Notes under the pieces: model-generated
Databases searched by the model: none
Told to the model about the DNA's origin: nothing
Seen by the model: only the letters and a program-made list of their open reading frames with translations
Assembly: GCF_002019705.1 (NCBI RefSeq)
Contig: NZ_KV917377.1
Span: 2,974,565-3,038,564 of the forward strand
Direction: 5' to 3'
Origin: Shouchella patagoniensis
Lineage (GTDB): Bacteria; Bacillota; Bacilli; Bacillales; Bacillaceae_D
Length of the DNA stretch: 64,000 nt
Shown here: one piece after another, positions 4,241 to 22,130 of the stretch
Position numbering within the stretch: position 1 is the stretch's first letter
Layout: the number at the start of each line of letters is the position of its first letter
Position numbers and translations under genes: made by a program

Positions 4241-4615
4241 GGCAGGGTCTTTGGATGGAGAACACATCCCGTTACAGGAGAAAGGAATACGTTTCATGGA
4301 GGGCTCGACTTTGGCTGTACACCAGCAGATTCTATTTTAAGTGTGGCAGATGGAAAAGTAGTCGAAGCAAGGCATGGCAATGTTGGCTATGGCAATTACG
4401 TCACTGTGCAACACGCACAAAACGAGTTTTCGCGTTATGCGCACTTATCGTCTATAGGTGTTTCGAACGGTGAAGAAGTTGATCAAGGGGATTCCCTAGG
4501 TAAATGTGGCACAACAGGTTCTAGTACGGGCAACCATCTTCATTTGGAACATATGACTGAACTTGGTCAGGCACACCCAGATAAGATTGACCAAAAAGAG
4601 ACATTGGGACTTTAA
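4241..4615 (+). pseudogene. 3' remnant of an M23 (LytM-type) peptidase
   Basis: From 4241 the frame reads FGWRTHPVTG, then HGGLDF, and ends with GNHLHLEH before TAA at 4613-4615. These are the H...D and HxH zinc-ligand motifs of M23 glycyl-glycine endopeptidases, which cut peptidoglycan cross-bridges. The N-terminal half and any signal peptide are missing because the sequence starts at the breakpoint with the ligase remnant. An ATG at 4343 exists, but a product from there would lack the first metal ligand. Followed after 18 bp by a membrane-anchored protein gene, an arrangement seen in some conjugative elements. Confidence 0.7.
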
Positions 4616-4633
4616 CAAGAAAGGACGGTATAC

Positions 4634-5152: not shown

Positions 5153-5231
5153 GAAGTTGATTGGGTAAATCTATGATTCTCTAAGAATTAATGGCGTTAG
5201 GTTAAAACCAAATTAAAAGGGGATGAGGAAA

Positions 5232-5600
5232 TTGAAAAAGAGCGTATTAAGTGTTGTTGCTATATTGGGTTTGTTGTTAGCGGCTTGTGGTGGAAGTGAA
5301 TATGACGCAGAGATCGAAGAGGTTATTGACTTATATAAGAATGATGATACTGCTATGATATGGATGGACGAAGAACAAATTACTCGTGAAAATGCTGATA
5401 TCAGTGTCTATGAAGAAGGACGTTATATTAAAATTGGCTTCTTTGATTTAGAAGATGAGGATAAGAATGTTCGTTTTGAATTTTATGAGAGAAGCAGGGA
5501 TACGTATGAATGGCTGCCTAGAATGAATCAAACAGATGATAGACTAGGGTTGGCGGATAGGGAGCCGGATTATCAAGAGTGGCAGGGGAAGGAGGAGTGA
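5232..5600 (+). CDS. Small lipoprotein
   Basis: An N-terminal Lys-rich stretch and hydrophobic helix end in a clear lipobox (LLAAC), so the protein should be lipidated and anchored outside the membrane. The mature part is acidic, about 100 residues, of unknown family. The TTG at 5232 is preferred because AAAGGGG lies at good spacing; the ATG at 5223 abuts the Shine-Dalgarno. It may belong with the interrupted membrane gene upstream. Confidence 0.6.
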   Translation: MKKSVLSVVAILGLLLAACGGSEYDAEIEEVIDLYKNDDTAMIWMDEEQITRENADISVYEEGRYIKIGFFDLEDEDKNVRFEFYERSRDTYEWLPRMNQTDDRLGLADREPDYQEWQGKEE

Positions 5601-6556: not shown

Positions 6557-6807
6557 TGTTTCACCTCAAAGTTATAAATCTCTCTCTTTTTTATAATATT
6601 ATACTATTATAGATCATAAGACCGATTTGAAATGACTGTATCTCGAGACAACTTCTTGGTTATAGAAAAGCAAATATAACCTACAATGGCAAAGTTACTT
6701 ATTTTATATATGGAAAATCAATTAAGTTAATAAATCGTAAAATTATATTTTTAATAGGTTAAAATGAGTGGGAATTAGTAGCACAATAAATAGTTTCTTC
6801 TATAAAA

Positions 6808-6962
6808 ATGCGGTTGCAAGCCAAATTTCTAACAAACCAATCACAAAAAGACGGAATTAATGAGATCGAACGGGGAGAGGAACACCAACAATCCTGTATT
6901 CATGGGCTTTTCGGAAAAGTGAAGCTTGTGTATCACCCCTGATACAGAAATGGCAATATATT
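6808..6962 (+). repeat. Dispersed ~300-bp repeat, copy A (5' half only)
   Basis: This stretch aligns to the first half of the repeats at 13563, 16000 and 21824. Shared blocks are TGCAAnCC near the start, GACGGAATTAAnGAGATC, CACCAACAATCC, ATGGGCTT..GGAAAAGTG and TGATACAGAAATGG. The similarity ends at about 6960, so the 3' half is absent. Its hairpin 6901-6909/6922-6930 (CATGGGCTT with AAGCTTGTG) keeps pairing despite base changes. It lies about 550 bp upstream of hsdM. Confidence 0.75.
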
Positions 6963-7500
6963 TACTGAAATGGGTTGGAGCAACTTATAACGCAAGATTC
7001 ACCAGAGAATAGGATCTAACTAATGTTTGCTAACTTCATGCAGGAAAAATATCATCTAAACGTTTAATATTAATCTATTAATTTCCATTGTGTAATGCTT
7101 TTGGACGTGATGAGGATGAGAATATGATTACACTAAGGATAGTGTTTTAGATTAAGAAAGTGAGATAGCTTTTCTCGGTAAGTTATGATTAGTAATTCAG
7201 AAATAATATTAATGAGAGTCTGGGCATAAGTTAAGGCAAGATGGATAAGCACCTAGTAATTCAAAGCAAAGTGGGAGAAGAAATATAAAGGACTAGTGAA
7301 AACTAGTCTTTTTTGTTTGAAAGCTAGTCCAAACTTCCCTATTTGCTTTGGTCAATTATAGTTTAAAATGTTTTTCATTACGCTTACCATTTAAAAAGCA
7401 TGTTAGAATAAACTAGGTAAGCATATTTAAATTAGATATTATGAGAAGTTAGTGAAGAATTATTTTAGATACAATAAATCAATATTAGCAAGAGATGAGG
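6963..7500. other. Intergenic leader upstream of the hsd operon
   Basis: No coding frame of note is visible. The stretch holds an intrinsic terminator (7291-7314) and AT-rich DNA before the hsdM ribosome-binding site (GATGAGG near 7494). Confidence 0.5.
7291..7314 (+). terminator. Intrinsic terminator upstream of hsdM
   Basis: The stem GACTAG/CTAGTC (7291-7296 with 7303-7308) with a TGAAAA loop is followed by six T. It would insulate the hsd operon from upstream transcription, or mark the end of an unseen short RNA. Confidence 0.8.
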
Positions 7501-7509
7501 AAATAGCAC

Positions 7510-9102
7510 ATGGCAACTTTACATAAGAAATTATTTAGCGCAGCTGATAATCTGCGCAGCAAGATGGATGCATCTGAATACAAAAACTACTTACTCGGAC
7601 TTATATTCTATAAATACCTATCTGACCGCTTACTTGAAAAGGTGGTAGAAGTAGCCGATGAATCGCTTGATGAATACGACACACAAGAAAAACAAGCGAT
7701 CCTCTACAATTCCCTCCTAAATGACGATGAAGTAAGTGAAGACTTAAAAGAAACATTACATGATACGTTAGGCTACGTAATGAAGCCAGAATACCTTTTC
7801 AATGAACTAACGAGACAAGCAAAGCAAAACCTGTTTCAGCTTCACCATCTAGAAAATGGATTCAGTGAGCTGTCGTCCGCTTACACTCAATTTAATGGCT
7901 TATTTGATGACGTTGATTTGCGTTCGAAGAAGCTAGGATCGGACGACCAGCAACGTAACGTTACAATCACAGAAGTATTGAAGAAGTTAAACGATGTTGA
8001 TGTTATTGGTCATAATGGTGATGTTATTGGCGATGCATACGAATATCTCATTAGTCAATTCGCTTCTGAAGCGGGAAAAAAAGCGGGCGAGTTTTACACG
8101 CCACATGAAGTATCACTAATGATGGCGCGAATTGTTGCGATAGGGCAAGAAGAAAAACGTTTATTTAGTGTTTATGACCCAACAATGGGCTCAGGCTCTC
8201 TGATGTTAAACGTCCGGAACTATATCGACTACCCTGATAATGTTAAGTACCATGGTCAAGAGATGAATACAACGACGTTTAATCTAGCAAAAATGAACTT
8301 GTTGCTTCATGGAGTCAATAATGAAGATATGAACTTACGAAATGCGGATACGTTAAATAAAGATTGGCCATCCGATGAACCGTATACGTTTGACTCGGTT
8401 TTAATGAATCCTCCATACTCCGCAAAATGGTCGGCGGCAGACACGTTCTTAGATGACTCACGTTTTAACCGTTTTGGAAAACTAGCACCTAAATCAAAAG
8501 CTGATTTTGCCTTTCTTTTACACGGCTTGTATCATTTAAAAGACTCAGGAACAATGGCCATTGTTTTGCCTCACGGCGTCTTATTCCGTGGTGCAGCAGA
8601 AGGTGTGATTCGGAAGAAATTGCTTGAAGACGGAATCATCGATGCCGTCATTGGGTTGCCTGGAAACCTATTTTATGGGACAAACATTGCAACAACAGTC
8701 ATTATCCTTAAGAAAAACCGCAACAAGCGTGACGTCTTATTCATTGATGCAAGTAAGACGTTTATTAAAGGGAAGAATCAGAACAAGTTAGATAATGAAC
8801 ACATTGACCAAATCGTTGACACGTACCAAAAACGAAAAACTATAGAAAAGTATGCGCACCTCGCTTCGTTTGAAGAAATTGAAGGCAATGATTTTAACTT
8901 AAACATTCCACGTTATGTCGATACGTTTGAAGAAGAAGAACCTGTTGATATGGCAAGCATCGGTGCATCAATTAAAGACATCCGAAAAGAAAAAGAAGAG
9001 CTTGAGTCTAGCTTATATGACGCGATTTCATCCATGCAGTTTGATGAGAAAGACGCAGACTGGATTAAAGGAGCATTAGAGGTGTTTAATCGTGGAAAGT
9101 AA
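7510..9102 (+). CDS. hsdM: Type I restriction-modification DNA methyltransferase HsdM
   Basis: HsdM is the N6-adenine methyltransferase subunit, which pairs with HsdS to methylate the recognition site with S-adenosylmethionine. The 530-residue protein has GEFYTPHEVS, then the SAM-binding motif I (DPTMGSGSLM, about residue 221) and the catalytic motif IV NPPY (about residue 300). The N-terminal helical domain and C-terminal region are full length for the family. The ATG is preceded by GATGAGG. It overlaps hsdS by 11 bp, so the two are translationally coupled. The operon is complete, and repeat copies A and B lie upstream and downstream of it. Confidence 0.97.
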   Translation: MATLHKKLFSAADNLRSKMDASEYKNYLLGLIFYKYLSDRLLEKVVEVADESLDEYDTQEKQAILYNSLLNDDEVSEDLKETLHDTLGYVMKPEYLFNELTRQAKQNLFQLHHLENGFSELSSAYTQFNGLFDDVDLRSKKLGSDDQQRNVTITEVLKKLNDVDVIGHNGDVIGDAYEYLISQFASEAGKKAGEFYTPHEVSLMMARIVAIGQEEKRLFSVYDPTMGSGSLMLNVRNYIDYPDNVKYHGQEMNTTTFNLAKMNLLLHGVNNEDMNLRNADTLNKDWPSDEPYTFDSVLMNPPYSAKWSAADTFLDDSRFNRFGKLAPKSKADFAFLLHGLYHLKDSGTMAIVLPHGVLFRGAAEGVIRKKLLEDGIIDAVIGLPGNLFYGTNIATTVIILKKNRNKRDVLFIDASKTFIKGKNQNKLDNEHIDQIVDTYQKRKTIEKYAHLASFEEIEGNDFNLNIPRYVDTFEEEEPVDMASIGASIKDIRKEKEELESSLYDAISSMQFDEKDADWIKGALEVFNRGK

Positions 9103-10321
9103 GCGAGTGCCGGAAGTTAGGTTTGCGGGGTTTCGAGGGGAGTGGGAAGAGAATCCTATAGGTGACATTGTAACTGAAATAATTAGACCATTTAAAATGA
9201 GTAATAATGATACCTATGAACTCGTAACAGTTAAAAGGAGAAACGGTGGTGTTGTGTCAAGAGGTTTATTTAAAGGCTCTGAAGTACTAGTTAAAACTCA
9301 ATTTTTAATATGTGAGGGCGATTTTCTTATATCTAAAAGACAAATAGTGCATGGTGCGAGTGCGACTGTACCCAAAACTTTAGATGGGTCAATCGTATCT
9401 AATGAATATCTAGTTTTAAATGGTACTGATAAATTAAATATAAAATTCTTATCATTAATTTCAGAGCTGCCACTTATGTACAACCATTATTATTTAAGCT
9501 CTTATGGTGTTGATAAAGAGAAGTTGGTATTTAATGTGAATGATTGGAAAAAAAGAAAGGTGAAAATTCCTTCAATTCAAGAGCAAAATCAAATTGTTTT
9601 GTTTGTTCACAGTTTAAAAGAAATTATTCAACGTAGTGAGCAAGAACTAGACTTATTAAAGCAAACGAAACAAGGCTTCTTACAAAAGATGTTTCCAAAA
9701 GAAGGGGAGTCTGTACCGGAAGTTCGTTTTCCGGGGTTTAGCGGGGAATGGGGATTATTAACATTAGGTGATATTACGAATAAATTTGAATATGGCCTTA
9801 ATGCAAGTGCGACAAATTATGATGGGAAAAACAGGTATATTAGAATAACGGATATTGATGATCATAGCCGTAATTTAATTAATAACAATTTAACCTCCCC
9901 AAATACAGACCTGTCTTTATCTCAAAGTTACCTACTGAACCAAGGTGACATTCTTATTGCAAGAACGGGAGCAAGTGTTGGGAAGTCATATATTTATGAT
10001 TCTAGTGATGGCATTGCTTATTTTGCAGGCTTTTTGATTCGAATGAGATTGCTCAATAATTATCATCCATACTTTATTTTTCAAAATACACTTACTGAAA
10101 AGTATAGAACATATATTAATATAACTTCGCAACGTTCTGGTCAGCCAGGAGTTAATGCAAAAGAATATGCTAACTTTTCATTGAGGATACCTATCCTAGA
10201 AGAACAAACCCAAATCGGCAACTTCTTCAAAAAACTGGACGACACAATCGCTCTACACCAAAAAGAACTCGATATGCTCAAGGAAACAAAAAAAGCGTTT
10301 TTACAAAAGATGTTTGTGTAA
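9092..10321 (+). CDS. hsdS: Type I restriction-modification specificity subunit HsdS
   Basis: HsdS recognises the split DNA target. The 409 residues form two similar halves. Each begins with a conserved PEVRF-x-GF-x-GEW element (near residues 7 and 208), continues into a target recognition domain, and ends with a coiled-coil spacer (E-L-D-L-L-K-Q-T-K-Q-G-F-L-Q-K-M-F and a close copy at the C-terminus). The start is a GTG at 9092 with GAGGTG upstream, inside the end of hsdM. The repeated elements are the usual sites for domain shuffling between hsdS alleles. The target sequence cannot be predicted from the protein. Confidence 0.95.
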   Translation: MESKRVPEVRFAGFRGEWEENPIGDIVTEIIRPFKMSNNDTYELVTVKRRNGGVVSRGLFKGSEVLVKTQFLICEGDFLISKRQIVHGASATVPKTLDGSIVSNEYLVLNGTDKLNIKFLSLISELPLMYNHYYLSSYGVDKEKLVFNVNDWKKRKVKIPSIQEQNQIVLFVHSLKEIIQRSEQELDLLKQTKQGFLQKMFPKEGESVPEVRFPGFSGEWGLLTLGDITNKFEYGLNASATNYDGKNRYIRITDIDDHSRNLINNNLTSPNTDLSLSQSYLLNQGDILIARTGASVGKSYIYDSSDGIAYFAGFLIRMRLLNNYHPYFIFQNTLTEKYRTYINITSQRSGQPGVNAKEYANFSLRIPILEEQTQIGNFFKKLDDTIALHQKELDMLKETKKAFLQKMFV

Positions 10322-10337
10322 GGGAAAGGGGATAGGA

Positions 10338-13300
10338 ATGACTAAGATTGCGCATAAGGACGAAGCAGAGATTGAGAAGCGGTTAATTGATGTGTTAGGT
10401 GAAGGGCATAATCAATGGAATTACCGCCCTGACTTAAAAACAGAAGCTGATTTATGGCAAAACGTTCGAAAGATCATCACGCAAAACAACTTATCAGAAA
10501 TTGGCGAGACGCCGATTTCTGATAAGGAGTTTGAGCGGATTAAGTCCGATATCCTATTACATACGCAAACGCCGTTTGATGCGGCGCGATTTCTTCGTGG
10601 CGAGAATGGCATCGCTCGTGTGACGATTGAGCGTGAGGATCGTTCCCTAGGTTCAATGTCTCTTGTTGTTTATTCAAATCACGATATTGGCGGTGGCATT
10701 TCAACTTATGAAGTTGTTCATCAGATTGCAAAGCAGCGCGCTTCAATTGAGAGAAGAGATCGTCGCTTCGATGTGACATTACTTATTAATGGCCTGCCAA
10801 TTGTACAAATTGAGTTAAAGCAAGTGACTGCCAAAGATGGTGTTTTTGAAGCCTTTAATCAGGTCAAAAAATACGCTGAAGAAGGCTTATTTCGAAATAA
10901 TATCTTTGCGACGCTTCAGCTGTTTGTCATTTCAAACGAACAAACGACGCGCTATTTTGCAAATGCGATGCCAAAGGACATGCATGCGAAATTTTTGTTT
11001 AGCTGGCGTACAACGGACAATCGCAAAGTGGACAACCTCTATGAATTTGTGAACCAGGTGCTTAATATACCATATGCACATCGATTAGTAGCACGTTATA
11101 CAATCGTCAGTGAGGAAATTGATCAAAAAGTGTTGATGGTGCTACATCCATATCAAATCCATGCGATTGAAGCGTTATTTACGTCAGCAAATAAACACCA
11201 ATCAGGATATGTCTGGCATGCGACAGGGTCTGGGAAGACGTTAACGAGCTTTGTTTCAACGAAGCTACTCGCTAAAAAGCAAGGTGTTGACCGCACGATT
11301 ATGTTAATTGATCGAAAAGATTTGGATAATCAAACTACGACTGAATTCACAAAATTCGCATCTGAATTCAACACAGGGATCACTTCGGGAGGCGGTCAAG
11401 CGAATAGTTTAATTGTTGGAACAGGTAGTTCGAAAGAATTAAGCCGAACGCTCCTTGCTGATGCCAATTCGAATACCATTATTATTACCACAAGGCAGAA
11501 GCTCGAAAATGCCCTTGACTATGCGAAAAAGCAAGAAGAAAAAGAAGGAAAGCAGCGATTTAAAAAGCTGCTTGGTCAGCATATTGTCTTTGTCGTAGAT
11601 GAATGTCATCGTGCTTTAAGTGCTGAAGGGAAGGAATCTATTAAATCGTTTTTCCCTAATTCCACCTGGTTTGGTTTTACAGGCACACCAATCTTGGAGG
11701 TAAATAAGAAGCAAGCAAAAGGGAAATTGGCACGAACAACACGCGATCAGTATGGTGACGTGTTACATACCTATACGATTAAAAATGCCTTGGATGATGG
11801 TGCGGTGCTAGGCTTTCAAGTCGAGCATGAAGACACGATTCAAAAAGAAGCGTTGCTAGAGAGTATTTATGACCAATTAAGATATGACGAGAAAAACAAT
11901 AACAAAACAAATGAGGAAATTAATCTCCTTATTGATGAAATGAGTGGGGTTCAAAAAGAGTCTTACCTTGACCCAACCATCTATCAAGATGATCAGCACA
12001 TTCAAACCGTTATTGAGAAGATATTTCGTCCGGACAATGCGTATACCAAGTTTGACTTTACAAATGGTCGTCCGCAAAAGTCTGCCATTTTAACAACGAG
12101 CTCTATTGAGATGGCAAAGCGCTATTATTATGCGATTAAAGAAATGACAAGTAAACCAAATTGGATGGATAATCTGAAACACCCGCTACGAAAAGGGCGC
12201 ACAATGGATGATCCCGACTTTCCGAGAATTGCGGTGACGTACTCGTTACAGGAAAATGAAGAGCACGCGAAGGAACAACAAGATGAAATGGCGGAAATGA
12301 TGAAATCGTACAATGCTTACTACGACACTGCATGGTCGATTCAAGATATTGATCGGTACAATGGTGACATTAACAACCGCTTGGCTCGTAAAAAAGCAGA
12401 ATTTAAACAATTTGGCAAACATCTTGACTTAGTCATTGTTGTCGATCGATTGCTAACAGGTTTTGATGCACCAACGATTCAAACGCTATTTGTTGACAGA
12501 AACTTAAGTTATGCCAATTTAATCCAAGCCTTCTCACGAACAAATCGAACGTTCCCTGGTAAGAAAAAAGGCTTAATTATGACGTTCCGTAAACCAGCGA
12601 CCATGCAACGCAATGTAGAAGATGCAACAAAGCTTTATTCAAATAAACAAGAAGAAACAAACCTTGTCTATCCGACATATAAGGATTCATTAGACCGCTT
12701 TAAAAAAGCACACAAGACATTAACGAACGCCGATTTTAATCTGGCAACAATTGATGAGCATGCGCCGATTGATGAAAAAATTGATTTTGTCCAAGCCTTT
12801 CAAGAATTAAACAATTCGTACGAAGCGTTAATTACCTATGACGACTACAACGACGCGATGGAGAAATCCACATCACTACAAGAACAAGTTCTCACAATTG
12901 AAGAACATGTAGGCGTATACAATACGGTAAAGGGCTCACTGATGAAGGAACCAAGCGATGAAGGCGCAGAGCCTGATTTTTCAACGATTGAGTTTTATGC
13001 AGAAAATGCGATAAAAGTTTATGATATCGACTCTGCCTTTGTTGACCAGCTACTTGGCAATTACTCAGCAAACGACCAAGACATCCGTCAAGAAATTGAA
13101 AAAGCCTTACAAAAGCTAAACAAAACAGAGATTGTCAAAGATGTGTATCACGCCATTCTGAATGCAATGGACAGCAACGTCATTAAAGCGACTGATGACA
13201 TCTTTGTTGTAAAGCGTCAATACTTCACGCAAACAAAAGACAAGCACATTCAAGAATTTGCAGATAACTGGTTCGTTGACGTAAAAGAGCTCCATTTGTC

Positions 13301-13490
13301 AGCCATTCAGTACGTCGAAGGAACCGATCCAATACCAAATATTAAGGGCATTCTTAACAGTAAGCAGTTTGATCAATACAAACTAATTTATCCAGACGCA
13401 AAACCACTTACTTTTAGTCCAAGCTTAAAACGAGCGTGGAGAAAGATGTTGGATGAAGTGGTTGTGCCGTTAGATGATGAGTTGAGATAA
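10338..13490 (+). CDS. hsdR: Type I restriction endonuclease subunit HsdR
   Basis: HsdR translocates and cuts unmethylated DNA. The protein (about 1050 residues) has an N-terminal PD-(D/E)XK nuclease part (FDVTLLINGLP then IELKQ, about residues 145-165), then helicase motifs: Walker A ATGSGKT (about residue 297), DECHRA (about 421), FTGTP (about 447) and the arginine-finger region SRTNRTFPGKKKG (about 735). The ATG at 10338 has AAAGGGGATAGGA upstream and follows hsdS by 16 bp. It appears intact, so the system should restrict foreign DNA. Confidence 0.96.
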   Translation: MTKIAHKDEAEIEKRLIDVLGEGHNQWNYRPDLKTEADLWQNVRKIITQNNLSEIGETPISDKEFERIKSDILLHTQTPFDAARFLRGENGIARVTIEREDRSLGSMSLVVYSNHDIGGGISTYEVVHQIAKQRASIERRDRRFDVTLLINGLPIVQIELKQVTAKDGVFEAFNQVKKYAEEGLFRNNIFATLQLFVISNEQTTRYFANAMPKDMHAKFLFSWRTTDNRKVDNLYEFVNQVLNIPYAHRLVARYTIVSEEIDQKVLMVLHPYQIHAIEALFTSANKHQSGYVWHATGSGKTLTSFVSTKLLAKKQGVDRTIMLIDRKDLDNQTTTEFTKFASEFNTGITSGGGQANSLIVGTGSSKELSRTLLADANSNTIIITTRQKLENALDYAKKQEEKEGKQRFKKLLGQHIVFVVDECHRALSAEGKESIKSFFPNSTWFGFTGTPILEVNKKQAKGKLARTTRDQYGDVLHTYTIKNALDDGAVLGFQVEHEDTIQKEALLESIYDQLRYDEKNNNKTNEEINLLIDEMSGVQKESYLDPTIYQDDQHIQTVIEKIFRPDNAYTKFDFTNGRPQKSAILTTSSIEMAKRYYYAIKEMTSKPNWMDNLKHPLRKGRTMDDPDFPRIAVTYSLQENEEHAKEQQDEMAEMMKSYNAYYDTAWSIQDIDRYNGDINNRLARKKAEFKQFGKHLDLVIVVDRLLTGFDAPTIQTLFVDRNLSYANLIQAFSRTNRTFPGKKKGLIMTFRKPATMQRNVEDATKLYSNKQEETNLVYPTYKDSLDRFKKAHKTLTNADFNLATIDEHAPIDEKIDFVQAFQELNNSYEALITYDDYNDAMEKSTSLQEQVLTIEEHVGVYNTVKGSLMKEPSDEGAEPDFSTIEFYAENAIKVYDIDSAFVDQLLGNYSANDQDIRQEIEKALQKLNKTEIVKDVYHAILNAMDSNVIKATDDIFVVKRQYFTQTKDKHIQEFADNWFVDVKELHLSAIQYVEGTDPIPNIKGILNSKQFDQYKLIYPDAKPLTFSPSLKRAWRKMLDEVVVPLDDELR

Positions 13491-13562
13491 AGATAGTTTT
13501 ATTAAAGGATTCTTTATAACAATTTATAGGTCATTGGTTTTCTTATTGCAATAATTTTTTGA

Positions 13563-13880
13563 GTGCTATTTAAATTAAGTAATTTGCAAACTAAATTGCT
13601 AACGAACCAATCACAAAGTGACGGAATTAACGAGATCAAACAGGGGAGAGGAACACCAACAATCCTATACTCATGGGCTTCATGGAAAAGTGGAGCCTGT
13701 GTAAAACCACTGATACAGAAATGGTAAGGTATCTGGTGGTGGTGCTCAGTGATTTCTAATTTTTAACAGCTTCGTAAGTGCTGCCATATTAGGCTTTTTC
13801 ACTAATGGAAAAGCCTTTTTATTTATAAGAAATGAAAATGCAAACCTTTACCGCATTAAAGTGTGATGGCAAGCAATGAA
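13563..13880 (+). repeat. Dispersed ~300-bp repeat, copy B
   Basis: Starts 73 bp after hsdR. It aligns with copies C and D through the blocks listed for copy A and continues with GGTAAGGTATC, a CAGC...GCTG hairpin (GTAAGTGCTG), ATTAGGCTTTTTC, TGCAAACCTTTA and ATTAAAGTGTG. The hairpin CATGGGCTTC/GGAGCCTGTG (13672-13681 with 13692-13701) pairs over ten positions. In this copy the AGGCTTTTTC segment also forms a terminator. There is no convincing open frame. Confidence 0.85.
13791..13825 (+). terminator. Terminator inside repeat copy B
   Basis: The stem 13791-13800/13807-13816 (AGGCTTTTTC with GGAAAAGCCT) is followed by TTTTATTTAT. It would end transcription from hsdR or from the repeat itself. 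The hairpin has decayed in copies C and D. Confidence 0.7.
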
Positions 13881-13960
13881 TTAGACCTTTTTTGTAAAGA
13901 GGCTTACCTTATCTCGGTAAAGCCCCGTTAGTTTATTAAGTGTGTTCTTAGATTATAATA

Positions 13961-15115
13961 TTATTCGCTTTTATCCCAACTAATATTAGAACCTTCATTT
14001 AGAAATGCAATGTTCTCGACATTCTCCATATCAAGATGATCTAATATTGAAGCACTTTCAAATACCTTTTTTGCTCTACTTTTACGATCATATTCAAAAT
14101 AATAAAAGGCATCTTCATAATCATCATGATCTCTAAGCATTTTAGAAAGGTACATGGCATCTTCTAACCCTAATGTCGTACCCATTCCCGCATTAGGATC
14201 TGCCGTGTGGAGAGCATCTCCAATTAATGCAACTCTTCCATTAGAGTAATCTTGAATTAAATCTACTCTATAGAGCTGTTTAGGAATAAAATTATCTGTG
14301 TTACTGATTAAGTCTTTAAGTGGCGCATCCCAATCAGAGAATCTATCAGCCAACTCTGATCTAAACAATTCAATTGGCTTTCTTTCAAAATGTTTCTTAG
14401 CGATCTTTCTCTCCTCTTGAACAATCATTGACCAAGAAATCTCATTATCTGTTGGATGGTGTTTGGATACAAAAAAATTGAAATTGTCATGGAAATACAT
14501 TAACGATGTATCCGTCGTAAAATAATCCTTATTCTTACCAATCTTTTCTGGGTTAAGCATCCCATATACTGCCCATTTGCCACTATACTTTAAAGGATAA
14601 CTTGGGAATGGGAATAAGATTGAACGTGTTTTGGAACGTACACCATCTGCTCCGATTAGCAGGCTTCCTTGTTCCTCTGTTCCGTCTTCAAAGGAAACAT
14701 TAATCTGATCACTTTCTTCTTCGAATGATTTTAATCTTTTTCCAAAATTTATTTTGATACCTTCTTGTTGAATTTTTTTATACAAAATATCAATTAAATG
14801 GAAACGAGCAATATTGATAAGGTATGGCATCTCATCGGGTTCTATATCTAGCTCAGGTTCCTCAAATAAAGGGTTCCCGTTTTTATCCATTGCTTTAAAA
14901 TCAATTAGCTGGTGACTATTCTTTTTTATTTCTTCACCTAGTCCTAATTGCTCCAGAACTCTTACACCATCAGGATGAATAAGAAAATGCCCGCCTACTT
15001 TACCAAAAGCAGGGGCTTGTTCATAGATAACACTTTCAATATTCGCTTTTTTTAGGAATAGTGACATAGTGAGACCGGCTAGACCTCCGCCTACAATAAC
15101 TACTTTTTTATTCAT
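13961..15115 (-). CDS. FAD-dependent aromatic-ring-type monooxygenase
   Basis: Group A flavoprotein monooxygenases use FAD and NAD(P)H to hydroxylate small aromatic or polyketide substrates. The 384-residue protein has the dinucleotide motif GGGLAG (about residue 9), the DG motif GADGVRS (about 157) and the second FAD motif GDALHTADPNAGMG (about 300). Length and motif layout match TetX-like and salicylate-hydroxylase-like enzymes; the substrate cannot be told from sequence. It is divergent from a TetR regulator gene with palindromes between them, so it is probably induced by its substrate or a toxic compound. Confidence 0.88.
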   Translation of the reverse strand: MNKKVVIVGGGLAGLTMSLFLKKANIESVIYEQAPAFGKVGGHFLIHPDGVRVLEQLGLGEEIKKNSHQLIDFKAMDKNGNPLFEEPELDIEPDEMPYLINIARFHLIDILYKKIQQEGIKINFGKRLKSFEEESDQINVSFEDGTEEQGSLLIGADGVRSKTRSILFPFPSYPLKYSGKWAVYGMLNPEKIGKNKDYFTTDTSLMYFHDNFNFFVSKHHPTDNEISWSMIVQEERKIAKKHFERKPIELFRSELADRFSDWDAPLKDLISNTDNFIPKQLYRVDLIQDYSNGRVALIGDALHTADPNAGMGTTLGLEDAMYLSKMLRDHDDYEDAFYYFEYDRKSRAKKVFESASILDHLDMENVENIAFLNEGSNISWDKSE

Positions 15116-15136
15116 AATATCACTCCTTATGGTTTA

Positions 15137-15152
15137 TCGGACAAACGTCCGA
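15137..15152. promoter_or_regulatory. Probable TetR operator 1
   Basis: A perfect inverted repeat TCGGAC-AAAC-GTCCGA lies 22 bp upstream of the monooxygenase start, in the divergent intergenic region. Confidence 0.65.
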
Positions 15153-15195
15153 ATAGGGTTAAAAAAATAACCTTTCGAAATTTATATTAACATTA

Positions 15196-15209
15196 ACCGG
15201 ACGTTCGGT
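15196..15209. promoter_or_regulatory. Probable TetR operator 2
   Basis: The near-palindrome ACCGGACGTTCGGT shares the CGGAC/GTCCG half-site with operator 1. Its position would let the repressor control both the monooxygenase and its own gene. Confidence 0.6.
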
Positions 15210-15343
15210 CAATTAAATGGTAAAATTAGTTTAACACTGTATAGTATAGATTGTTAATAACCTCATTAAATTCGATTAATGGCAGTTGATTAATGATTTA
15301 GTATAAAATTAGAATACAATTAAAGTGAATTTCAGGAGGAACT

Positions 15344-15937
15344 ATGAGCAGACCAATTGGAACAAATAGTAAAGACACAAAAAAGTTTATTAAAGATATA
15401 GCAACTAAAATTTTTGAATACAAAGGTTATACTGCAACTTCAATGAAAGATATAAAAAATGACACTCATTTAAGTAAAGGTACAATATATTATCATTTTA
15501 AAAACAAAGAAGAACTGTATCTTTACTGCCTCACTCAATCGTCGAATGAATTTGTTAATAAATGGAGAACACTTTCAATCAAAGCATTAAATGCTGAAGA
15601 AAAATTATATTCCTGGGCTAAACTAAATAGTGTAGAACATCAAAAACCTTTAACGAAGACTATTCCTGAATATTTAGTTTCTGTGAAGTCTGATGAGATT
15701 ACCTCCATTATAAATATGTTCAAACCTGAAATGGATATAATTACGGAGATCCTCGAAGAAGGGAAAAGGTCTGGTGAGTTTAAAGCTGATTTAAATATTG
15801 ATAACACTAGCATTATCTTGTTCAATCTGATTTCTTCTTTAAGCGATTCTTTCTTTTTTGGTTATAAAACACAAGAAGACCAAAGTAACCTTTATTCTAG
15901 TGCGATAGAGATTTTTGTTGAAGGCTTAAAAGCATAA
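15344..15937 (+). CDS. TetR/AcrR-family transcriptional repressor
   Basis: The N-terminal 55 residues form the TetR helix-turn-helix (GYTATSMKDI...LSKGTIYYHFKNKEELY). The remainder is an all-helical ligand-binding and dimer domain typical of the family (197 residues). The ATG follows CAGGAGGA. It is transcribed away from the monooxygenase gene, and two related palindromes lie between them, so it most likely represses both. The inducer is unknown. Confidence 0.9.
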   Translation: MSRPIGTNSKDTKKFIKDIATKIFEYKGYTATSMKDIKNDTHLSKGTIYYHFKNKEELYLYCLTQSSNEFVNKWRTLSIKALNAEEKLYSWAKLNSVEHQKPLTKTIPEYLVSVKSDEITSIINMFKPEMDIITEILEEGKRSGEFKADLNIDNTSIILFNLISSLSDSFFFGYKTQEDQSNLYSSAIEIFVEGLKA

Positions 15938-15999
15938 CTTTAATGAGTGTTGAAAAGATGTTTTGAACTTATCTGAGACAGAGTTTCTAGTACCCTGCC

Positions 16000-16312
16000 G
16001 TGCTATCTAATCTGCAAACCAAAACGCAAACAATCTAATTACAAACAGATGGAATTAATGAGATCTAGCAGGGAAGAAAGGCGCCAACAATCCAGTATTA
16101 ATGGGCTTTACGGAAAAGTGAAGTCCATGCAAAACCCCTGATACAGAAATGGTAAGGTATAAAGTGGTGGGGCTTAGCGAATTGGTATTTTATTACACCT
16201 GTGTAAGTGCTGTCACATTAGGCTTTTTCAGTAATAGGAAGTCTTTAAGTTTTATTCAAAAATGAAATGCAAACCTTTATTACATTAAATTGTGAAAGGT
16301 CATGATAAACTT
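16000..16312 (+). repeat. Dispersed ~300-bp repeat, copy C
   Basis: Starts 62 bp after the TetR gene with GTGCTATCTAATCTGCAAACC and aligns along its length with copies B and D. The key hairpin has changed on both sides but still pairs (ATGGGCTT with AAGTCCAT, 16101-16108 and 16121-16128). GATACAGAAATGGTAAGGTAT is retained. The terminator-like segment has decayed. Confidence 0.85.
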
Positions 16313-16384
16313 ATCCTTATTTTAGTATAAATTCGTAGTTCTCTTAAACTAAAGCACCCGTAAGTTGAAATAAGAACTTAGTAT

Positions 16385-17077
16385 TTATGGACCTTCGTAA
16401 GGAGGGTTTTCAACATGGTCAGCAAAATCTTCTTTATATGGGCAGCCATCCAACAAAATCTCTTTTGCTGCATTCTTAAAATCATATTCGGTTATCCTTA
16501 AATTACATTTATCAGAGTCAATTAACAACCAACAGGCTCCTTTGGCTCTGCTCTGTAATCCAACACTGCCTGCGTTAATGACTTTCTTAGATGAAATATC
16601 CCTTTTAAATTGAATGTGGGTATGACCACAAATGATAACGGTTTGATTTTCATTTTTAATCATCTCATAAACTTCATTTTCAGGAGTATGTAACCTTATA
16701 GCCTCCGTATCGCTTCTAGGAGAGCCATGTATAAATAAATTATTACCTTCTACATGTGAAAATTTAAATGAACCTAACCATTCAAGTTGCTTAGTTGATA
16801 GTTGCTCAACACACCACTGGTTTAATTCGCCAACCATATTTTCTACTCGTTTTGGGTTTTTATAGTGTTCAAATAACTCCCGATCACCATTACCCATAAT
16901 AAAGATAAATTCGTCTTTATATGCAAAGAGTTTGTCTATGACTTTCTTAGGCTGTGGACCCCAAGCCAAATCACCCCCAACAATTATCTTATCTACGTTT
17001 TCATTTTTAATTTCTTTTAAAACAGCTTCTAACGCTCGATAATTACCATGTATATCGTATATTGCAGCAACTCGCAT
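16385..17077 (-). CDS. YfcE/ApaH-type metallophosphoesterase
   Basis: This is a dinuclear-metal phosphoesterase. The 230-residue protein has the full motif set: DIHGN (residue 8), GGDLAWGP (35), GNGDRE (62) and GHTHIQF (about 152). The family includes phosphodiesterases and phosphatases of broad specificity; the substrate is not predictable. The start has GGAAGGTGATT upstream. It is downstream of the small membrane and VOC genes on the same strand, but gaps of about 110-190 bp make a single operon uncertain. Confidence 0.88.
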   Translation of the reverse strand: MRVAAIYDIHGNYRALEAVLKEIKNENVDKIIVGGDLAWGPQPKKVIDKLFAYKDEFIFIMGNGDRELFEHYKNPKRVENMVGELNQWCVEQLSTKQLEWLGSFKFSHVEGNNLFIHGSPRSDTEAIRLHTPENEVYEMIKNENQTVIICGHTHIQFKRDISSKKVINAGSVGLQSRAKGACWLLIDSDKCNLRITEYDFKNAAKEILLDGCPYKEDFADHVENPPYEGP

Positions 17078-17262
17078 TTGTAATCACCTTCCATATATTT
17101 TATATTAAGTAATTCTACAAATTGGTATTGTTTTCCTTGTAACATTAACCCGCCCCGTTAGCTCCAAAAGGAAAAAGCTGCCCCTATAAATTTAGAAGGC
17201 AAACTTCGTAGTATCTATAAAGTGAGAGGTAAAAAAGACAGCCTGAATGAATGCCTTTTAGG

Positions 17263-17472
17263 TCATGTTTCATTTGCTGGATTTTTACCCTTAAAAGAAA
17301 CAATAAGTACAATCAAGCCAACAACGAAGACACCAAGAGCAAGCCATGAAAGCGTGTTAGACACTGGAATAACGTCTAATAAGCCAAGAACAGTAATTAT
17401 AGGGAGAACGAAAATTGTGCCCATAATACCTTGAAATCTTGAATGTCGAGCTCTTCCTTTAAAAGAAGCCAT
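17263..17472 (-). CDS. Small two-helix membrane protein
   Basis: From the ATG at 17472 (GGAGGATGTTAT upstream) it encodes 69 residues with two hydrophobic helices (about 11-31 and 39-60) separated by a short polar turn and a basic N-terminus. An extension upstream to 17562 has no ribosome-binding site. The family is not recognised. Confidence 0.65.
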   Translation of the reverse strand: MASFKGRARHSRFQGIMGTIFVLPIITVLGLLDVIPVSNTLSWLALGVFVVGLIVLIVSFKGKNPANET

Positions 17473-17582
17473 ATAACATCCTCCATGATTTTGTCTTATG
17501 GTTGATATTCCCAGTAAATAAGAAACAAAACATTTCAATACCAGACTGTTTAAAGCCCCCATTCAATAATAATATTTCATTT

Positions 17583-18002
17583 TTATTTTGAGATTAAATA
17601 TCTTTCTTTGAAAAGTGGGCTAAGTTCACTCCATACATCGAATTTATTACCATTTAGATCATAAAAAACAAAATTCCTTCCAGTATGTCCTCGGTTTTCA
17701 ATATCCCCAACTCTAATATCATTCGCTATAAAGTCTTTATGTAGTTCTTTCAAAGATTCCAATCCATTTACTTCGAATGTTAAAGAAAAGCGTTCTTCAC
17801 CATAAATATCAATAAAATTAGAAGTTTGATTTTCGTTTGATTTAATTAGAAAAATACTTTGGTTTGCAAGGTTTAGAATAGCTTTATCTTCATCTTTATA
17901 AGATAAATCTGCACCTAATTTATTCATGTACCATTCAGATGATTTTCCTACATTTGTTACTGGAATGTAAGTAGTTCCAATCCTCAATAATTTTTCGTCC
18001 AT
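17583..18002 (-). CDS. VOC (glyoxalase/bleomycin-resistance fold) protein
   Basis: A 139-residue protein with two beta-alpha-beta-beta-beta units typical of the vicinal-oxygen-chelate fold (PVTNVGKSSEWYMNKLG at the start and GNKFDVWSEL at the end). Such proteins are metal enzymes or drug-binding resistance proteins. The start at 18002 has AGGAGG at ideal spacing, so the longer frame to 18065 is rejected. Confidence 0.8.
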   Translation of the reverse strand: MDEKLLRIGTTYIPVTNVGKSSEWYMNKLGADLSYKDEDKAILNLANQSIFLIKSNENQTSNFIDIYGEERFSLTFEVNGLESLKELHKDFIANDIRVGDIENRGHTGRNFVFYDLNGNKFDVWSELSPLFKERYLISK

Positions 18003-18062
18003 AACAAAACCTCCTAATTTAATATTTAGAGTTATTTCGCTTTTTGTATACTTTTCTCCTTC

Positions 18063-18170
18063 CAAAGCACTGTTATAATAGGCTTTTTCTTTATGGGGGA
18101 TTATAATAATCTTTTCGGAAGAGAAATTACAAACCTTTATTACGTTAAAATGCTGATATTCATGATAAGA
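18063..18170 (+). repeat. Dispersed repeat, copy E (3' third only)
   Basis: The segment retains GCACTGTTATAATAGGCTTTTTC, then ACAAACCTTTATTACGTTAAAATG and TTCATGATAAG, matching the 3' ends of copies C and D. The first two thirds are missing. It lies between the VOC gene and the lipase module, again at a module boundary. The remaining intergenic DNA (18171-18267) has nothing recognisable. Confidence 0.6.
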
Positions 18171-18267
18171 GATTGCATTTTTTGGAGGAATAAGTGAAAA
18201 AGGAGATTGCTCAATTTGGTAACTACAAAAATATACAAGCTCAAGGAACTTGTATACGAATAGGTTG

Positions 18268-18624
18268 TTATTTTAAGGTAAGCTTTAATGCCTCTTGATC
18301 CAACTCTGTATGAATATCATATTTTTGCTTATGGTAATCCGATATGTTGTCTGTAAAAGTTGCTGAATGCAATAGGCTTGCTGTGTTTATACTGACATCT
18401 TTTACTTCGCTTGCTATTACTAAATCGTTTAGACGCTCAAGCAAACTTTTAACAAATTCCCCATCTTGATCTGCGAGTATGGTTTCGGTATGTTTTAACC
18501 GAACCGAAGTTGTATCCATCTTGTCTCGAATACGGCTAAGTTTAGTACGGGCGTTTTCTTCAAAGCTAGTTTCATCAAAAGAGAATTTATATGTACCTAC
18601 ATTAGGATTTAGCCAATCGAACAT
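18268..18624 (-). CDS. Small helical protein, possible LXG-associated partner
   Basis: A 118-residue protein, mostly helical and polar, starting MFDWLNPN. It follows the lipase-like gene by 13 bp and is surely co-transcribed. In characterised type VII effector modules, small helical Lap-type proteins bind the LXG targeting domain of the toxin; the size and context fit that role, but I see no diagnostic motif. It could instead be an unrelated accessory or immunity protein. Confidence 0.55.
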   Translation of the reverse strand: MFDWLNPNVGTYKFSFDETSFEENARTKLSRIRDKMDTTSVRLKHTETILADQDGEFVKSLLERLNDLVIASEVKDVSINTASLLHSATFTDNISDYHKQKYDIHTELDQEALKLTLK

Positions 18625-18637
18625 TATGTATACCTCC

Positions 18638-20254
18638 TTATCGAAGTTTTGCAGCTAACTCAATGTCAGTATCAAATAACACATGCATTGTTTCTTTATA
18701 GGCATCTATTATACTTTCAAGTTCACTAATATCTTGTTGATACAGTTCTATCATAAGATCTAAATTTTCGTTTACTTGATTATCTAAAGGGTCAAATTCA
18801 CGCCGAAATGTCACTCCAGTTGGTTTATAAATTGCGTTTTTGCCATAACTATGCCCAGCTTCACTGAGGAAAGCTGGCCAATTGGCTTCTTTGTTGCTCA
18901 TAATGCCGTTCAATTTTTCACGGTATTCAAAAGCAAGTTCTGGCACATCCCATTCACGATAAGAAAGAAGCTCTTGTACAGCCTCGCGCTTGTCCTCTAA
19001 TGCAGTTTCTAACGATTGTAGCGCATTGAACAAGACGTCTTGGTTAACAAGAATATGTGTACTTGTTCCTGGTTCAAGATGATAAGTGGTAATCTCACCC
19101 GTCTTGTAATGTTCAATAAGGGTTGAAATGCTGTGCAAATCGAATTGCCCTCTCGCGGAATAAATGTCCCAAGCCTTGTTAGCAAATGCACTATTGGAAA
19201 GAGCTCCGACGCCACCGACAAGCATAGTCGCACCAGCACCGATACCTAACCGAATTCGTTGATTTGGAGTTAAGACATTATAAATACCAACTGCCCGGTT
19301 TTTTGATTGGACAAGCTTGTCATTGATGTCGTCTACTGAATTATTTTCCCCAACATGCCCAAAGTAGTTCATCGTCAAGTTTAAGGACTGGTTATATATA
19401 AACTTATCAAGTATGGTTTTACCTGGTATTAATAGGTTGTGGAAGATTCCTATTTTTCCAGTATCAGACTCGAAAAGGTTTGGGAATTCCGGTGCCCCCA
19501 TATCACCAACATATTGAATTTTGTTTCCTGCATAAAATGTATTAGGAATAAGTTGAGCGTAAAGTGGTTCTCCTTTGACGCGTACATGCGTGATGTTCTG
19601 AGCCTGGTCGGCATAAAATTCGCGGGCGAAAAGTTCTAGTTGATCATTTGGTATTTTTTCAATATCAGAAGTTCCAGCTTGAAAAGTTAGAAAGTCGTTG
19701 AAATCAGCGTCAATATTCGCCATTTGTTTCAAGTTAACTGGCGCATCATTTAATCCTCTAACATCGGTGAATTCTTTATTGATTAGAGCTAGGCTTATAA
19801 TGACATGCCCTCCTAGAGAGTGCCCATCTCCAAACCGTTCTAATGTAGATTTTTCTTCATTTGGAAGTTTGTTTGATACTTCTTTTTCGACATTCTCATA
19901 AAATCTCGTTGCATCTAAAATTTGGTCATTAGAGGCACCCGCAGTTACGCCAATTGCATTGTAAATAATATCTTGTAGCTGACTAAGCTCAGTTCCACGA
20001 GCTATATAATAGATTTCATTAATATTATCTTCTTTGTTATAAACATGAATAGCGGCTCCGTCAAAACCAGAAGAACTACCTTTCTTGTTAAAAAGATCCA
20101 TGTTATTGCTATCGTAGATGTATATGTCCTCAGAATTTATGTGATTTATTTCATGATCAATAAGTAAACCTTCTACGGTTTCTTTGGATAAGACTTCTCC
20201 ATTCTCATATTGTAACTTTGTCAAGTCATTTCGTAATTCTGGTGTAAACTCCAT
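18638..20254 (-). CDS. Lipase-like protein with C-terminal helical domain (possible type VII effector)
   Basis: The N-terminal ~280 residues have an alpha/beta-hydrolase layout: YYIARGTE (oxyanion-type strand, about residue 86) and the nucleophile elbow GHSLGG (Ser at about 146). A hydrophobic Gly/Ala segment (about 337-360) is followed by a helical region of about 180 residues with a repeated heptad pattern. There is no signal peptide. This toxin-first, helical-targeting-last order resembles the S. aureus type VII lipase TslA, where the LXG-like domain is C-terminal. An anchored protein gene lies directly upstream and a small helical protein directly downstream. The start at 20254 is chosen for its GAAGGTG site. 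Secretion and activity are inference. Confidence 0.65.
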   Translation of the reverse strand: MEFTPELRNDLTKLQYENGEVLSKETVEGLLIDHEINHINSEDIYIYDSNNMDLFNKKGSSSGFDGAAIHVYNKEDNINEIYYIARGTELSQLQDIIYNAIGVTAGASNDQILDATRFYENVEKEVSNKLPNEEKSTLERFGDGHSLGGHVIISLALINKEFTDVRGLNDAPVNLKQMANIDADFNDFLTFQAGTSDIEKIPNDQLELFAREFYADQAQNITHVRVKGEPLYAQLIPNTFYAGNKIQYVGDMGAPEFPNLFESDTGKIGIFHNLLIPGKTILDKFIYNQSLNLTMNYFGHVGENNSVDDINDKLVQSKNRAVGIYNVLTPNQRIRLGIGAGATMLVGGVGALSNSAFANKAWDIYSARGQFDLHSISTLIEHYKTGEITTYHLEPGTSTHILVNQDVLFNALQSLETALEDKREAVQELLSYREWDVPELAFEYREKLNGIMSNKEANWPAFLSEAGHSYGKNAIYKPTGVTFRREFDPLDNQVNENLDLMIELYQQDISELESIIDAYKETMHVLFDTDIELAAKLR

Positions 20255-20266
20255 CTTTTTCACCTT

Positions 20267-20926
20267 CTAACGGAATTTAATATGATTAATAAACGTCTCA
20301 AAGAAAGTTTTCTCTTTTTCAGTTTCTATTTCACACGTCGTTTGACCAATACAATTTAATCGGTAAGCGATGGTCACAGATTTTGTTTCATCTTTATTTA
20401 CGACTAAAGCAAAGTGTCGATTTGCCTCATGTTTAGATGGAGAAGACGTAATAACTTCTGTTCCATCCATTTTTTTATGCGATGAACCGTAATAGATTTT
20501 ATTCGAGTCGTGATTTAATTCTATATATTCGTCGTTGTAAGCAAAATCATCAAGAAGCAGACTTAAATCAGTTTTTATTAATTTGGGAGTTAGTTCCCCA
20601 GAAAACCTAATTTGTATATGTCGTTCAATCCCGTTCGAATCTGCGCCGTCCTCATAGAAATTCAGCAATTCATAATGATCCTTACTAATATACGACGGTG
20701 GCTCACCCTGAAGATAAAAGCCTTCTGGGTACCACATGGAATAGTGTTCATTTTGTGATTCGAAGAAGTGAAAGCCTTCATCTGTTTTGACATCTTCTTG
20801 TAAGAAGCTGCTTGTAAAGCGGTCACTCAAAGCGATATCATCTGGTTGGTTCATTGCTCGTGCCATAAATATTCCTCCTATCACAAGTAAAAGTGCTACG
20901 GCGGAAATAAAGATGCTTTTTTTCAA
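20267..20926 (-). CDS. Membrane-anchored extracellular protein, putative immunity to the lipase
   Basis: One N-terminal membrane segment (about residues 5-22) precedes a ~195-residue extracytoplasmic domain with a Cys pair near the end (NCIGQTTC). No lipobox is seen. The TTG at 20926 follows AAGGTGGGAG; a GTG at 20938 is possible. It is the first gene of the lipase operon, only 12 bp upstream. A decayed second copy lies immediately upstream, and duplicated immunity genes are common beside polymorphic toxins. The immunity role is inferred from position, topology and duplication. Confidence 0.55.
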   Translation of the reverse strand: MKKSIFISAVALLLVIGGIFMARAMNQPDDIALSDRFTSSFLQEDVKTDEGFHFFESQNEHYSMWYPEGFYLQGEPPSYISKDHYELLNFYEDGADSNGIERHIQIRFSGELTPKLIKTDLSLLLDDFAYNDEYIELNHDSNKIYYGSSHKKMDGTEVITSSPSKHEANRHFALVVNKDETKSVTIAYRLNCIGQTTCEIETEKEKTFFETFINHIKFR

Positions 20927-21000
20927 AATAACTCCCACCTTTATGATTTTCTTTTGTAATGATTTGAAGACTAAAATAAAGTCTAATGAAACGAAAAAGG

Positions 21001-21467
21001 TTTAATAAAAAAGTCTTTTCTTTTGTTGTATCAATCTTGCATATCTCTTGCTCAAGACATTTTAAGCGATATGTAGTGGTTATTAATTTATTCCCATCGT
21101 CATTAACCACCAAAGCAAAGTAACGATTGGCTTCGTGTTGAGATGGAGATAGAGTGATGATATCTGTTCCCTCCACTTCTTTATAAGAACTTCAGGAGCA
21201 GTACAAACCCATTTAAACAACCTTTTTGATGATTGCTCATATAAAGGAAAACACACTCTGATAACTAACGGCACTAACCTAATCTTCTTTGGCTCAGTGT
21301 CGGTTTTGCGATTCGAGGAAGTGATTTTCGACTTCTTCTTGTAAAAAGCTTCTTGTATATGAGTTTCTTAAAGCGATGTCACTCGAACTCATTAATGGTG
21401 TTACAATAAAAACTCCTACAATACCAACACTTAGAACAACAACGAGTATTATCTAAGTTTTTTTCAT
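21001..21467 (-). pseudogene. Decayed paralogue of the putative immunity gene
   Basis: On the minus strand an ATG at 21467 begins MKKT and then TAG. The same frame continues with a hydrophobic anchor and IALRNSYTRSFLQEEV, matching IALSDRFTSSFLQEDV of the neighbour. The middle is scrambled. The end (near 21010-21180) again matches: EGTDIITLSPSQHEANRYFA against DGTEVITSSPSKHEANRHFA. Nonsense, frameshift and deletion lesions are all present. Confidence 0.75.
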
Positions 21468-21823
21468 GTCTTTCACCGACCTTAAAATGGTGAGCAGGTT
21501 CCATTTACAATTATATAGGAAAATATGGAATTAGACCACAAATAGCAAATGAATTAATTTGATTAAGCTAATAAGTTAAACTGTTTATATTTTTTTGTTT
21601 AGCTTATAATAATTTAAGTTGAGAATGAGGATTAAATGGAGTTTGAGAAACGTTCAAACAAGATTTTAAATCTCTAATTACAATTAGGTGAAAACACGAA
21701 GAAATACTAAACCGATTGCTAGGTGAAACTCTTGAACAAGAGGCTTTGATAGATAAAGTTGAACTGTGAGGTATATTTTAATGGATAATTCCTATAAATT
21801 GATCGAGTTTCTACTATTATAAT
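21468..21823. other. Gene-free AT-rich stretch
   Basis: Nothing supportable was found here beyond AT-rich DNA upstream of the immunity pseudogene. Repeat copy D begins at 21824. Confidence 0.4.
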
Positions 21824-22130
21824 GTGCTAACTAATCTGCAAACCAAATTGCTAACAAACTAATTACAAACAGATGGAATGAATGAGATCTAACAGGAGAG
21901 AGAGGCACCATCAATCCTTTAATCATGGGCTTTATGGAAAAGTATACGCCGCGTAAAACCTCTGATACAGAAATGGTAAGGTATTAGATTGGTGGTGCTC
22001 AGTAATTTACTATTTTTAACAGGCTCGTAAGTGCTGTCACATTAGGCTTTTCTAAGAATGAGAGATTCTGTTTCTTTAACCAAAAAGAAATTGCAAACCT
22101 TTACTGTATTAAAGTGTGTTGTCGGCAATA
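21824..22130 (+). repeat. Dispersed ~300-bp repeat, copy D
   Basis: Begins GTGCTAACTAATCTGCAAACC, almost the same as copy C, and runs through GAGATCTAACAGG, CATGGGCTT, TGATACAGAAATGGTAAGGTAT, TTTTTAACAGG, GTAAGTGCTGTCACATTAGGC and TTGCAAACCTTTACTG. The main hairpin is weaker here (its 3' arm reads CGCCGCG). It is the last clear copy in the window. The following 22131-22317 has no recognisable feature. Confidence 0.85.

Follow-up and report, generated by a model that had tools for sequence, protein, structure and literature searches.

A repeat between gene modules of Shouchella patagoniensis as the probable attachment junction of integrative and conjugative elements stacked at tRNA-Thr(GGT)

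A repeat of about 300 bp stands between the functional gene modules of a stretch of Shouchella patagoniensis DNA (contig NZ_KV917377.1, positions 2,974,565 to 3,038,564), which is referred to here, at its full length of 64,000 nt, as the window. We propose that this repeat is almost certainly the attachment (att) junction of integrative and conjugative elements (ICEs) of the ICEBs1/Tn916 type that target tRNA-Thr(GGT), and of their degenerate relatives, and that the array of modules consists of insertions stacked at the 7-nt core of the junction. The evidence that carries this explanation is the homology of the repeat's 3′ half to tRNA-Thr, the position of the arrays downstream of tRNA-Thr, an integrase, a nearly complete ICE in relatives, and two breakpoints at the core. 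A sequence-only reading made earlier had taken the modules for a gene-cassette array with a common boundary element, and this idea is supported and essentially right: the boundary is an att junction that recurs in the arrays of relatives with other cargo, and the results support cassettes of the type of ICEs and cis-mobilizable elements (CIMEs) rather than a new cassette system.

The coordinates given here are those of the window on the + strand and come from profile matches (Table 1), while positions marked C1 refer to the whole contig of the window's genome (G000). Profile and DNA searches confirmed that the repeat is real, lies on the same strand in all five copies and is placed between gene modules. 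It is modular, being composed of a 5′ half, a core and a 3′ half, with the two halves meeting at the 7-nt core ATGGTAA. The five ordered copies first described hold at full length for three of the five (B, C and D), whereas copy A has only the 5′ half and copy E only the 3′ half; copy A also does not read TGATACAGAAATGGTAAGGTAT, as had been claimed, since its core has a C in place of T and the sequence diverges thereafter, and no recognisable 3′ half was found behind its core. The window contains four occurrences of the core motif ACAGAAATGGYAA, where 0.00 would be expected (maximum 0 in 100 shuffles), and TGCAAACC occurs seven times against 2.24 expected, five of the seven inside copies. With copy D as DNA query against the whole 4.65-Mb genome, six matches were obtained, all at E≤1.8e-29, namely D itself, A, B, C and two at 4.23 Mb, E not being among them. 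Because the copies are only about 67-89% alike over their shared parts, they are not recent duplicates, in agreement with the first reading. A separate observation concerns the stretch 18058-18755, which runs from copy E to where the DUF6792 gene begins and is 96% identical to the second 4.23-Mb junction and its right flank in the same genome, far above the likeness among the repeats themselves.

The origin of the 3′ half is found in a tRNA gene. The anticodon loop of tRNA-Thr(GGT) is ATGGTAA, identical to the repeat's core, and the 3′-half profile matched across the tRNA-Thr(GGT) gene in two relatives (G002 and G009). Two types of 3′ half can be told apart. In T-type copies (G003_2, G003_4 and G008_4), the core is followed by the tRNA-Thr 3′ half and its downstream flank, near-intact or with small losses. 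In the S-type, to which the 3′ halves in the window belong, parts of the tRNA 3′ half and of the downstream flank are kept in alignment to the tRNA-Thr locus, with about 11 extra nt behind the core and the T-arm lost. A profile built from S-type 3′ halves only scored 35-44 bits on all five tRNA-Thr loci tested, the best of 2000 shuffles reaching 7.6. Sequence comparison thus firmly indicates that the repeat's 3′ half descends from the 3′ half and flank of tRNA-Thr. This descent bears directly on whether the repeat could instead be transcribed as a structured RNA, such as a regulatory leader, which we consider highly improbable: a hairpin near GGGCTTCA..TGAAGCCC has one pair changed on both sides in two of ten sequences, but the consensus fold reaches only -16.35 kcal/mol over 307 columns with a covariation term of -0.43 and double changes in 2 of 45 pairs, no Rfam family matched at gathering score in the window, with only a chance snoRNA match (E 1.9) around copy D, and the 3′ half is accounted for by tRNA-Thr descent while the halves occur apart.

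The series of copies is not confined to the window but starts outside it at tRNA-Thr, which in the window's genome lies at C1:2960776, about 13.8 kb to the left of the window start (2974565). Each of the 13 genus genomes has one full-length match to tRNA-Thr(GGT), every one with an intact 3′ half. Copy D finds matches at 1e-5 in six of these 13, its own included, and at 1e-4 in eight of 41 family genomes, seven within the genus and one, partial, in another genus. The copies are clustered into arrays in G000, G002, G003, G005 and G008, and in the same five genomes several array copies are halves, mostly parted at or near the core. All half-profile (F5/F3) matches with E≤0.05 lie on the tRNA strand in G000, G002, G003, G005, G007 and G012, and in G009 two lie on the tRNA strand and one weak match (E 0.025) opposite. 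The region between the tRNA and the common flank gene is variable, measuring about 46 kb in G000, 39 in G002, 68 in G003, 64 in G005, 9 in G009 and 7 in G012. Homology to the tRNA locus extends no further than the tRNA end in G001 and G010, so that these sites look empty, and the 3′ flank at the right-hand junction of G011 is the same as at these two sites. A restored tRNA paired with a displaced tRNA 3′ fragment was found in G004, G006 and G007, and in G011 across two contigs; in the window's genome, the displaced fragment at copy A is unrecognisable. A second, smaller array in this genome (C1:4204986-4230826; loci L072 and L028) opens with a tRNA-Thr 3′ half and has a truncated integrase nearby.

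This distribution leaves an insertion sequence remnant or a miniature inverted-repeat transposable element exceedingly improbable as the source of the repeat. Such an origin would suit intergenic copies present several times per genome, but the copies are clustered and share one orientation behind tRNA-Thr; a search with copy D at E 1e-5 gave no match among 72,556 plasmid and 50,697 phage records, and no terminal inverted repeat or target duplication was apparent in the alignments, which were inspected with no dedicated scan and no comparison to an insertion sequence database. The identification with a known insertion sequence that the first reading had allowed for was likewise not obtained from these plasmid and phage searches or from Rfam.

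Some further sites were noted in the same searches. A second integrative element family, whose arms carry GGTGGCGAA-type words, uses the same tRNA-Thr anticodon loop (L078 and L081 in G008 C11; L079/L080 in G011). In another genus of the family (G019), L097 9144-9251 holds a partial S-type 3′ half (E 6e-10, also 1.3e-9), with no core and no tRNA within the 16.4 kb around it. The profile matches in G128 and G177 were too weak (E 0.02 or worse) to be counted as copies, and the 18-base core pattern seen in three viral contigs was rejected as a chance occurrence, since the profile matched only 19-22 positions around the pattern at E 0.05-0.16.

The other half of the junction leads to an ICE. The first element of G003 encodes, by Pfam, an integrase, M78 and HTH regulators, HTH_17, FtsK, Rep_trans, TcpC, TcpE, AAA_10 and lysozyme/M23, and from this gene content it is a nearly complete ICE of the ICEBs1/Tn916 type. 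A cytosine methylase cargo gene follows the ICE genes and is itself followed by the repeat's 5′ half; because the ICE terminates in it, the 5′ half corresponds to the ICE right end. The Rep_trans relaxase was also found in G005, and no match to it was found in the G000 genome, where TcpE, AAA_10, lysozyme-M23 and DUF4467 were detected in the tRNA-proximal element. Copy A is best read as the attR of this ICE remnant. Ahead of copy A, window positions 4250-5600 hold a second, fragmentary ICE tail (an M23-like piece and DUF4467) downstream of the first, which suggests that two ICE remnants are fused there, and an RnlA-like protein with RNase LS family domains is encoded at 2401-3627, inside the remnant between tRNA-Thr and copy A.

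An intact tyrosine integrase (PF00589) lies near tRNA-Thr in G000, G003 and G005, and the arm-DNA-binding domain is present in both integrases scanned for it (G000 and G003); decayed or truncated integrases occur in G002, G003, G009 and at the second G000 locus. The G007 element has TTGCAAACC-like words at both ends. Beyond the family, G128 encodes, beside tRNA-Thr(GGT), an integrase of 64% identity with an adjacent TTGCAAACC word, and G267 has two 5′ halves, a tRNA 3′ piece and a decayed integrase; at order level, an integrase match at 1e-90 was found in 7 of 299 genomes, three of them within the genus. Head-to-tail units that differ in their accessory genes, with a tyrosine recombinase at one end of the array, would also recall a chromosomal integron with attC sites. 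To this we assign a practically negligible chance, because the integrase carries an arm-binding domain and stands beside ICE genes and the core of the array copies is common to the tRNA anticodon loop; as far as they were scanned, the integrases near the tRNA proved to be of the ICE type with an arm-binding domain, a comparison in which no IntI-specific model was applied.

Taken in this way, the junction and the array could be formed as follows. First, the tyrosine integrase would insert elements into the anticodon loop (ATGGTAA) of tRNA-Thr(GGT) by crossover within the 7-nt core, giving junctions laid out as 5′ arm, 7-nt core and 3′ arm, in which the TTGCAAACC-like words are putative integrase arm-binding sites. 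Because each element would carry its own tRNA 3′ half, insertion would restore the tRNA while moving the previous 3′ half further downstream. If such insertions recurred at the core, the units would come to stand head to tail, all in one direction, with new elements accreting either at the tRNA itself or at junctions within the array. The window's units lack an integrase, and the resident integrase of the tRNA-adjacent unit could in principle excise or exchange them, so that present-day excision of these units is conceivable.

The units themselves are described in Table 1. None of the 15 PF00589 matches in the window's genome falls between copies A and D, and no integrase or transfer domain was detected in the nine open reading frames (ORFs) scanned in this interval, those at 9092, 10314 and 20838 being outside the scan. 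Related att sites flank unit B-C and the stretch C-D; unit A-B has flanking att likeness at the 5′ halves and core only, and E is a partial site. The window modules fit, as judged from their gene content and borders, integrase-less cis-mobilizable elements. The cargo of relatives' arrays includes short-chain dehydrogenases, an aldo/keto reductase, MerR, a flavodoxin-fold protein, Rrf2 and KptA, as well as a metal ATPase with ArsR, an SBF transporter and others. The window's phosphoesterase stretch 16304-17154 is found again, 90% identical, at L037 7002-7971 (G003, 2.07 Mb), accompanied there by a partial 5′ half only.

Table 1. Repeat copies, cargo of the units and an ICE-remnant gene in the window (window coordinates).
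Feature	Position	Strand	Description	Basis
Copy A	6791..6953	+	5′ half (ICE right-end arm) only, into core ATGGCAA 6950-6956	Profile, E=2.4e-44
Copy B	13557..13867	+	5′ half, core ATGGTAA 13721-13727, S-type 3′ half	Profile
Copy C	15979..16295	+	5′ half, core 16149-16155, S-type 3′ half	Profile
Copy E	18056..18155	+	Remnant, S-type 3′ half alone	Profile
Copy D	21802..22119	+	5′ half, core 21973-21979, S-type 3′ half	Profile
Unit A-B cargo	7510..13490	+	HsdM (N6_Mtase) and two ORFs	Pfam (HsdM)
ORFs of unit A-B	9092-10321, 10314-13490	+	Read as HsdS, HsdR	Position and size only
Unit B-C cargo	13961..15937		FAD-binding monooxygenase-type protein (-), TetR regulator (+)	Pfam
Unit C-E cargo	16385..18065	-	Calcineurin-type phosphoesterase, small ORF with no Pfam match, glyoxalase/VOC-family protein	
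Unit E-D cargo	18268..21176	-	DUF6792 protein; ORFs of 118 and 223 aa with no Pfam match; ORF 20838-21176	
DUF4467 protein	5223..5600	+	Within second ICE-tail copy (with ORFs near 4250-4900); part of ICE remnant ending at copy A	

Movement of the units by recombination at the repeat, which the sequence-only reading had put forward as speculation, was approached through breakpoints. Queries were made with 26 of 30 listed junctions, the other four (G003_1, G008_2, G008C63_a and G267_1) giving no core by the pattern used; the list comprises junctions other than copy E, the core-less G003_3 and the G002 counterpart of G003_3, and only blocks longer than 100 bases and reaching past the repeat were considered. 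Two inter-species block edges lie in or at the 7-nt core: G002_2 and G003_4 are 99.5% identical over 1505 bases in a block ending at core base 5, and a block of 462 bases that starts at core base 0 is 92% identical between window copy D and G008C63. Other block edges lie elsewhere. A test of 5′- versus 3′-half distances covered 13 junctions whose 3′ half is S-type and gave r 0.28 (a value that 1.6% of permutations reached), with r 0.15 for the 10 of full length (17% of permutations); the control halves of one arm gave r -0.24 and -0.14, and the test is of no help for judging shuffling.

These edges matter for an alternative in which the junctions are dead, that is, of att origin but with current cassette variation produced by ordinary homologous recombination between copies and shared genes. 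The copies are long (up to about 320 bases) and 67-89% alike, several homologous-block edges are away from the core, and the integrase genes inside arrays are decayed or truncated, all of which agrees with this alternative, itself compatible with the origin of the repeat that we favour. However, one inter-species block, of 1505 bases, has its end within the 7-nt core and another, of 462 bases, has its start there, positions that homologous exchange over some 320 bases would rarely hit, and the integrase in G000 is intact. We regard the alternative as possible, on balance improbable.

Several observations weigh against insertion by site-specific recombination at the core as we propose it. The block common to copy E and the 4.23-Mb junction begins 49 nt past the core start and that common to C and G003c begins 155 nt past it, the core is lost in G003_3 and its G002 counterpart, and the r of 0.28 speaks, if anything, mildly against free shuffling of halves. 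Neither a T- nor an S-type 3′ half follows copy A, G002_3, G008C63_b or G267_2. The start site of the second G000 array (4.20-4.23 Mb) has no tRNA 5′ half and may be a secondary insertion site. In the window's genome the ICE is a partial one, and the VirB4-like AAA_10 gene of G003 is split into two ORFs, against one of 832 aa in G000 and G005. PF00589 had no match on the tRNA-Thr contigs of G004, G006 and G007, so not every element at tRNA-Thr brings such an integrase. Finally, one genome per species was compared, with no strain pair differing in the presence of a window unit.

The degenerate S-type 3′ half common to units inside arrays is an unusual feature, which may mark cassettes confined to arrays. 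An S-type arm beside a tRNA 5′ half was found in none of the 13 genus genomes, as would be expected if this arm would break the tRNA. One S-type arm is common to several unrelated units, which suggests that S-type units spread as units; alternatively, the S-type arms may have come from decay and duplication within old arrays. Since the T-arm is lost and about 11 extra nt follow the core, S-type units would be unable to insert at the tRNA without breaking it, and we tentatively raise the idea, which we think rather doubtful, that they form an array-only lineage of mobile cassettes inserting only at junctions inside arrays, by means of the resident ICE integrase acting in trans. If this were true, the array would have created its own landing site, and tRNA islands would have given rise to an integron-like way of life.

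The att-junction explanation accounts for how accessory modules, among them those for restriction-modification, metal transport and regulation, come to be stacked at a single site in Shouchella genomes. In addition, the repeat profile is a means to find units that are rejected by integrase-requiring island finders, and the copies, being att sites at successive stages of decay, offer a natural setting for studying the point at which a site derived from a tRNA no longer depends on it. Among the open-licence papers listed in literature searches, none deals with these arrays, as judged by title and the start of the abstract.

Among known systems, ICEBs1 of Bacillus subtilis targets tRNA-Leu, whereas the elements described here target tRNA-Thr(GGT) and stand in arrays. 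The gene order of the G003 element, with int, immA/immR-like, xis-like, FtsK-like, Rep_trans relaxase, TcpC, TcpE, VirB4-like and CwlT-like genes, resembles that of ICEBs1, a likeness in order and Pfam domains and not of compared sequences. Accretion of ICESt1 and CIMEs in Streptococcus thermophilus has reportedly been described by Pavlovic in 2004 and Bellanger in 2011; the target and host of that system differ from those here, where, moreover, several units stand in series beside ICEBs1-type conjugation genes. In a review, CIME accretion is modelled in three steps, wherein an ICE integrates, decays to a CIME keeping its att sites, and the next element integrates at att (PMC5704250). The decay of an ICE to an att-keeping CIME and further integration at an att site are what the present arrays appear to share with ICESt1/CIME accretion.

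Islands in tRNA genes as catalogued by Islander likewise have the tRNA restored and their end marked by the displaced fragment, and a class with crossover in the anticodon loop is known (PMC4383910). The same work counts 125 tandems of at least two islands and four of at least three, and it discards candidate islands lacking an integrase (PMC4383910), so that S-type units would escape the method. Anticodon-loop insertion, tRNA restoration, tandem arrays and CIME accretion are therefore already known, and it is the shared degenerate S-type 3′ half that is unusual. The nearest known case found is that of the ssrA islands of Dehalococcoides, which are arranged in tandem downstream of one essential RNA gene and bounded by repeats of its 3′ end (McMurdie 2011, PMC3146451). 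Some of these islands have an integration module and 15 have none, and the authors suggest cis-mobilizable elements that move by accretion (PMC3146451); many repeats and integrase-less units are thus common to both systems. The ssrA islands rely on a serine recombinase, a 20-bp repeat and the tmRNA T-loop, whereas the Shouchella arrays would use a tyrosine integrase and the tRNA-Thr anticodon loop, and are further set apart by long att arms and by a degenerate 3′ half that holds no usable piece of the tRNA.

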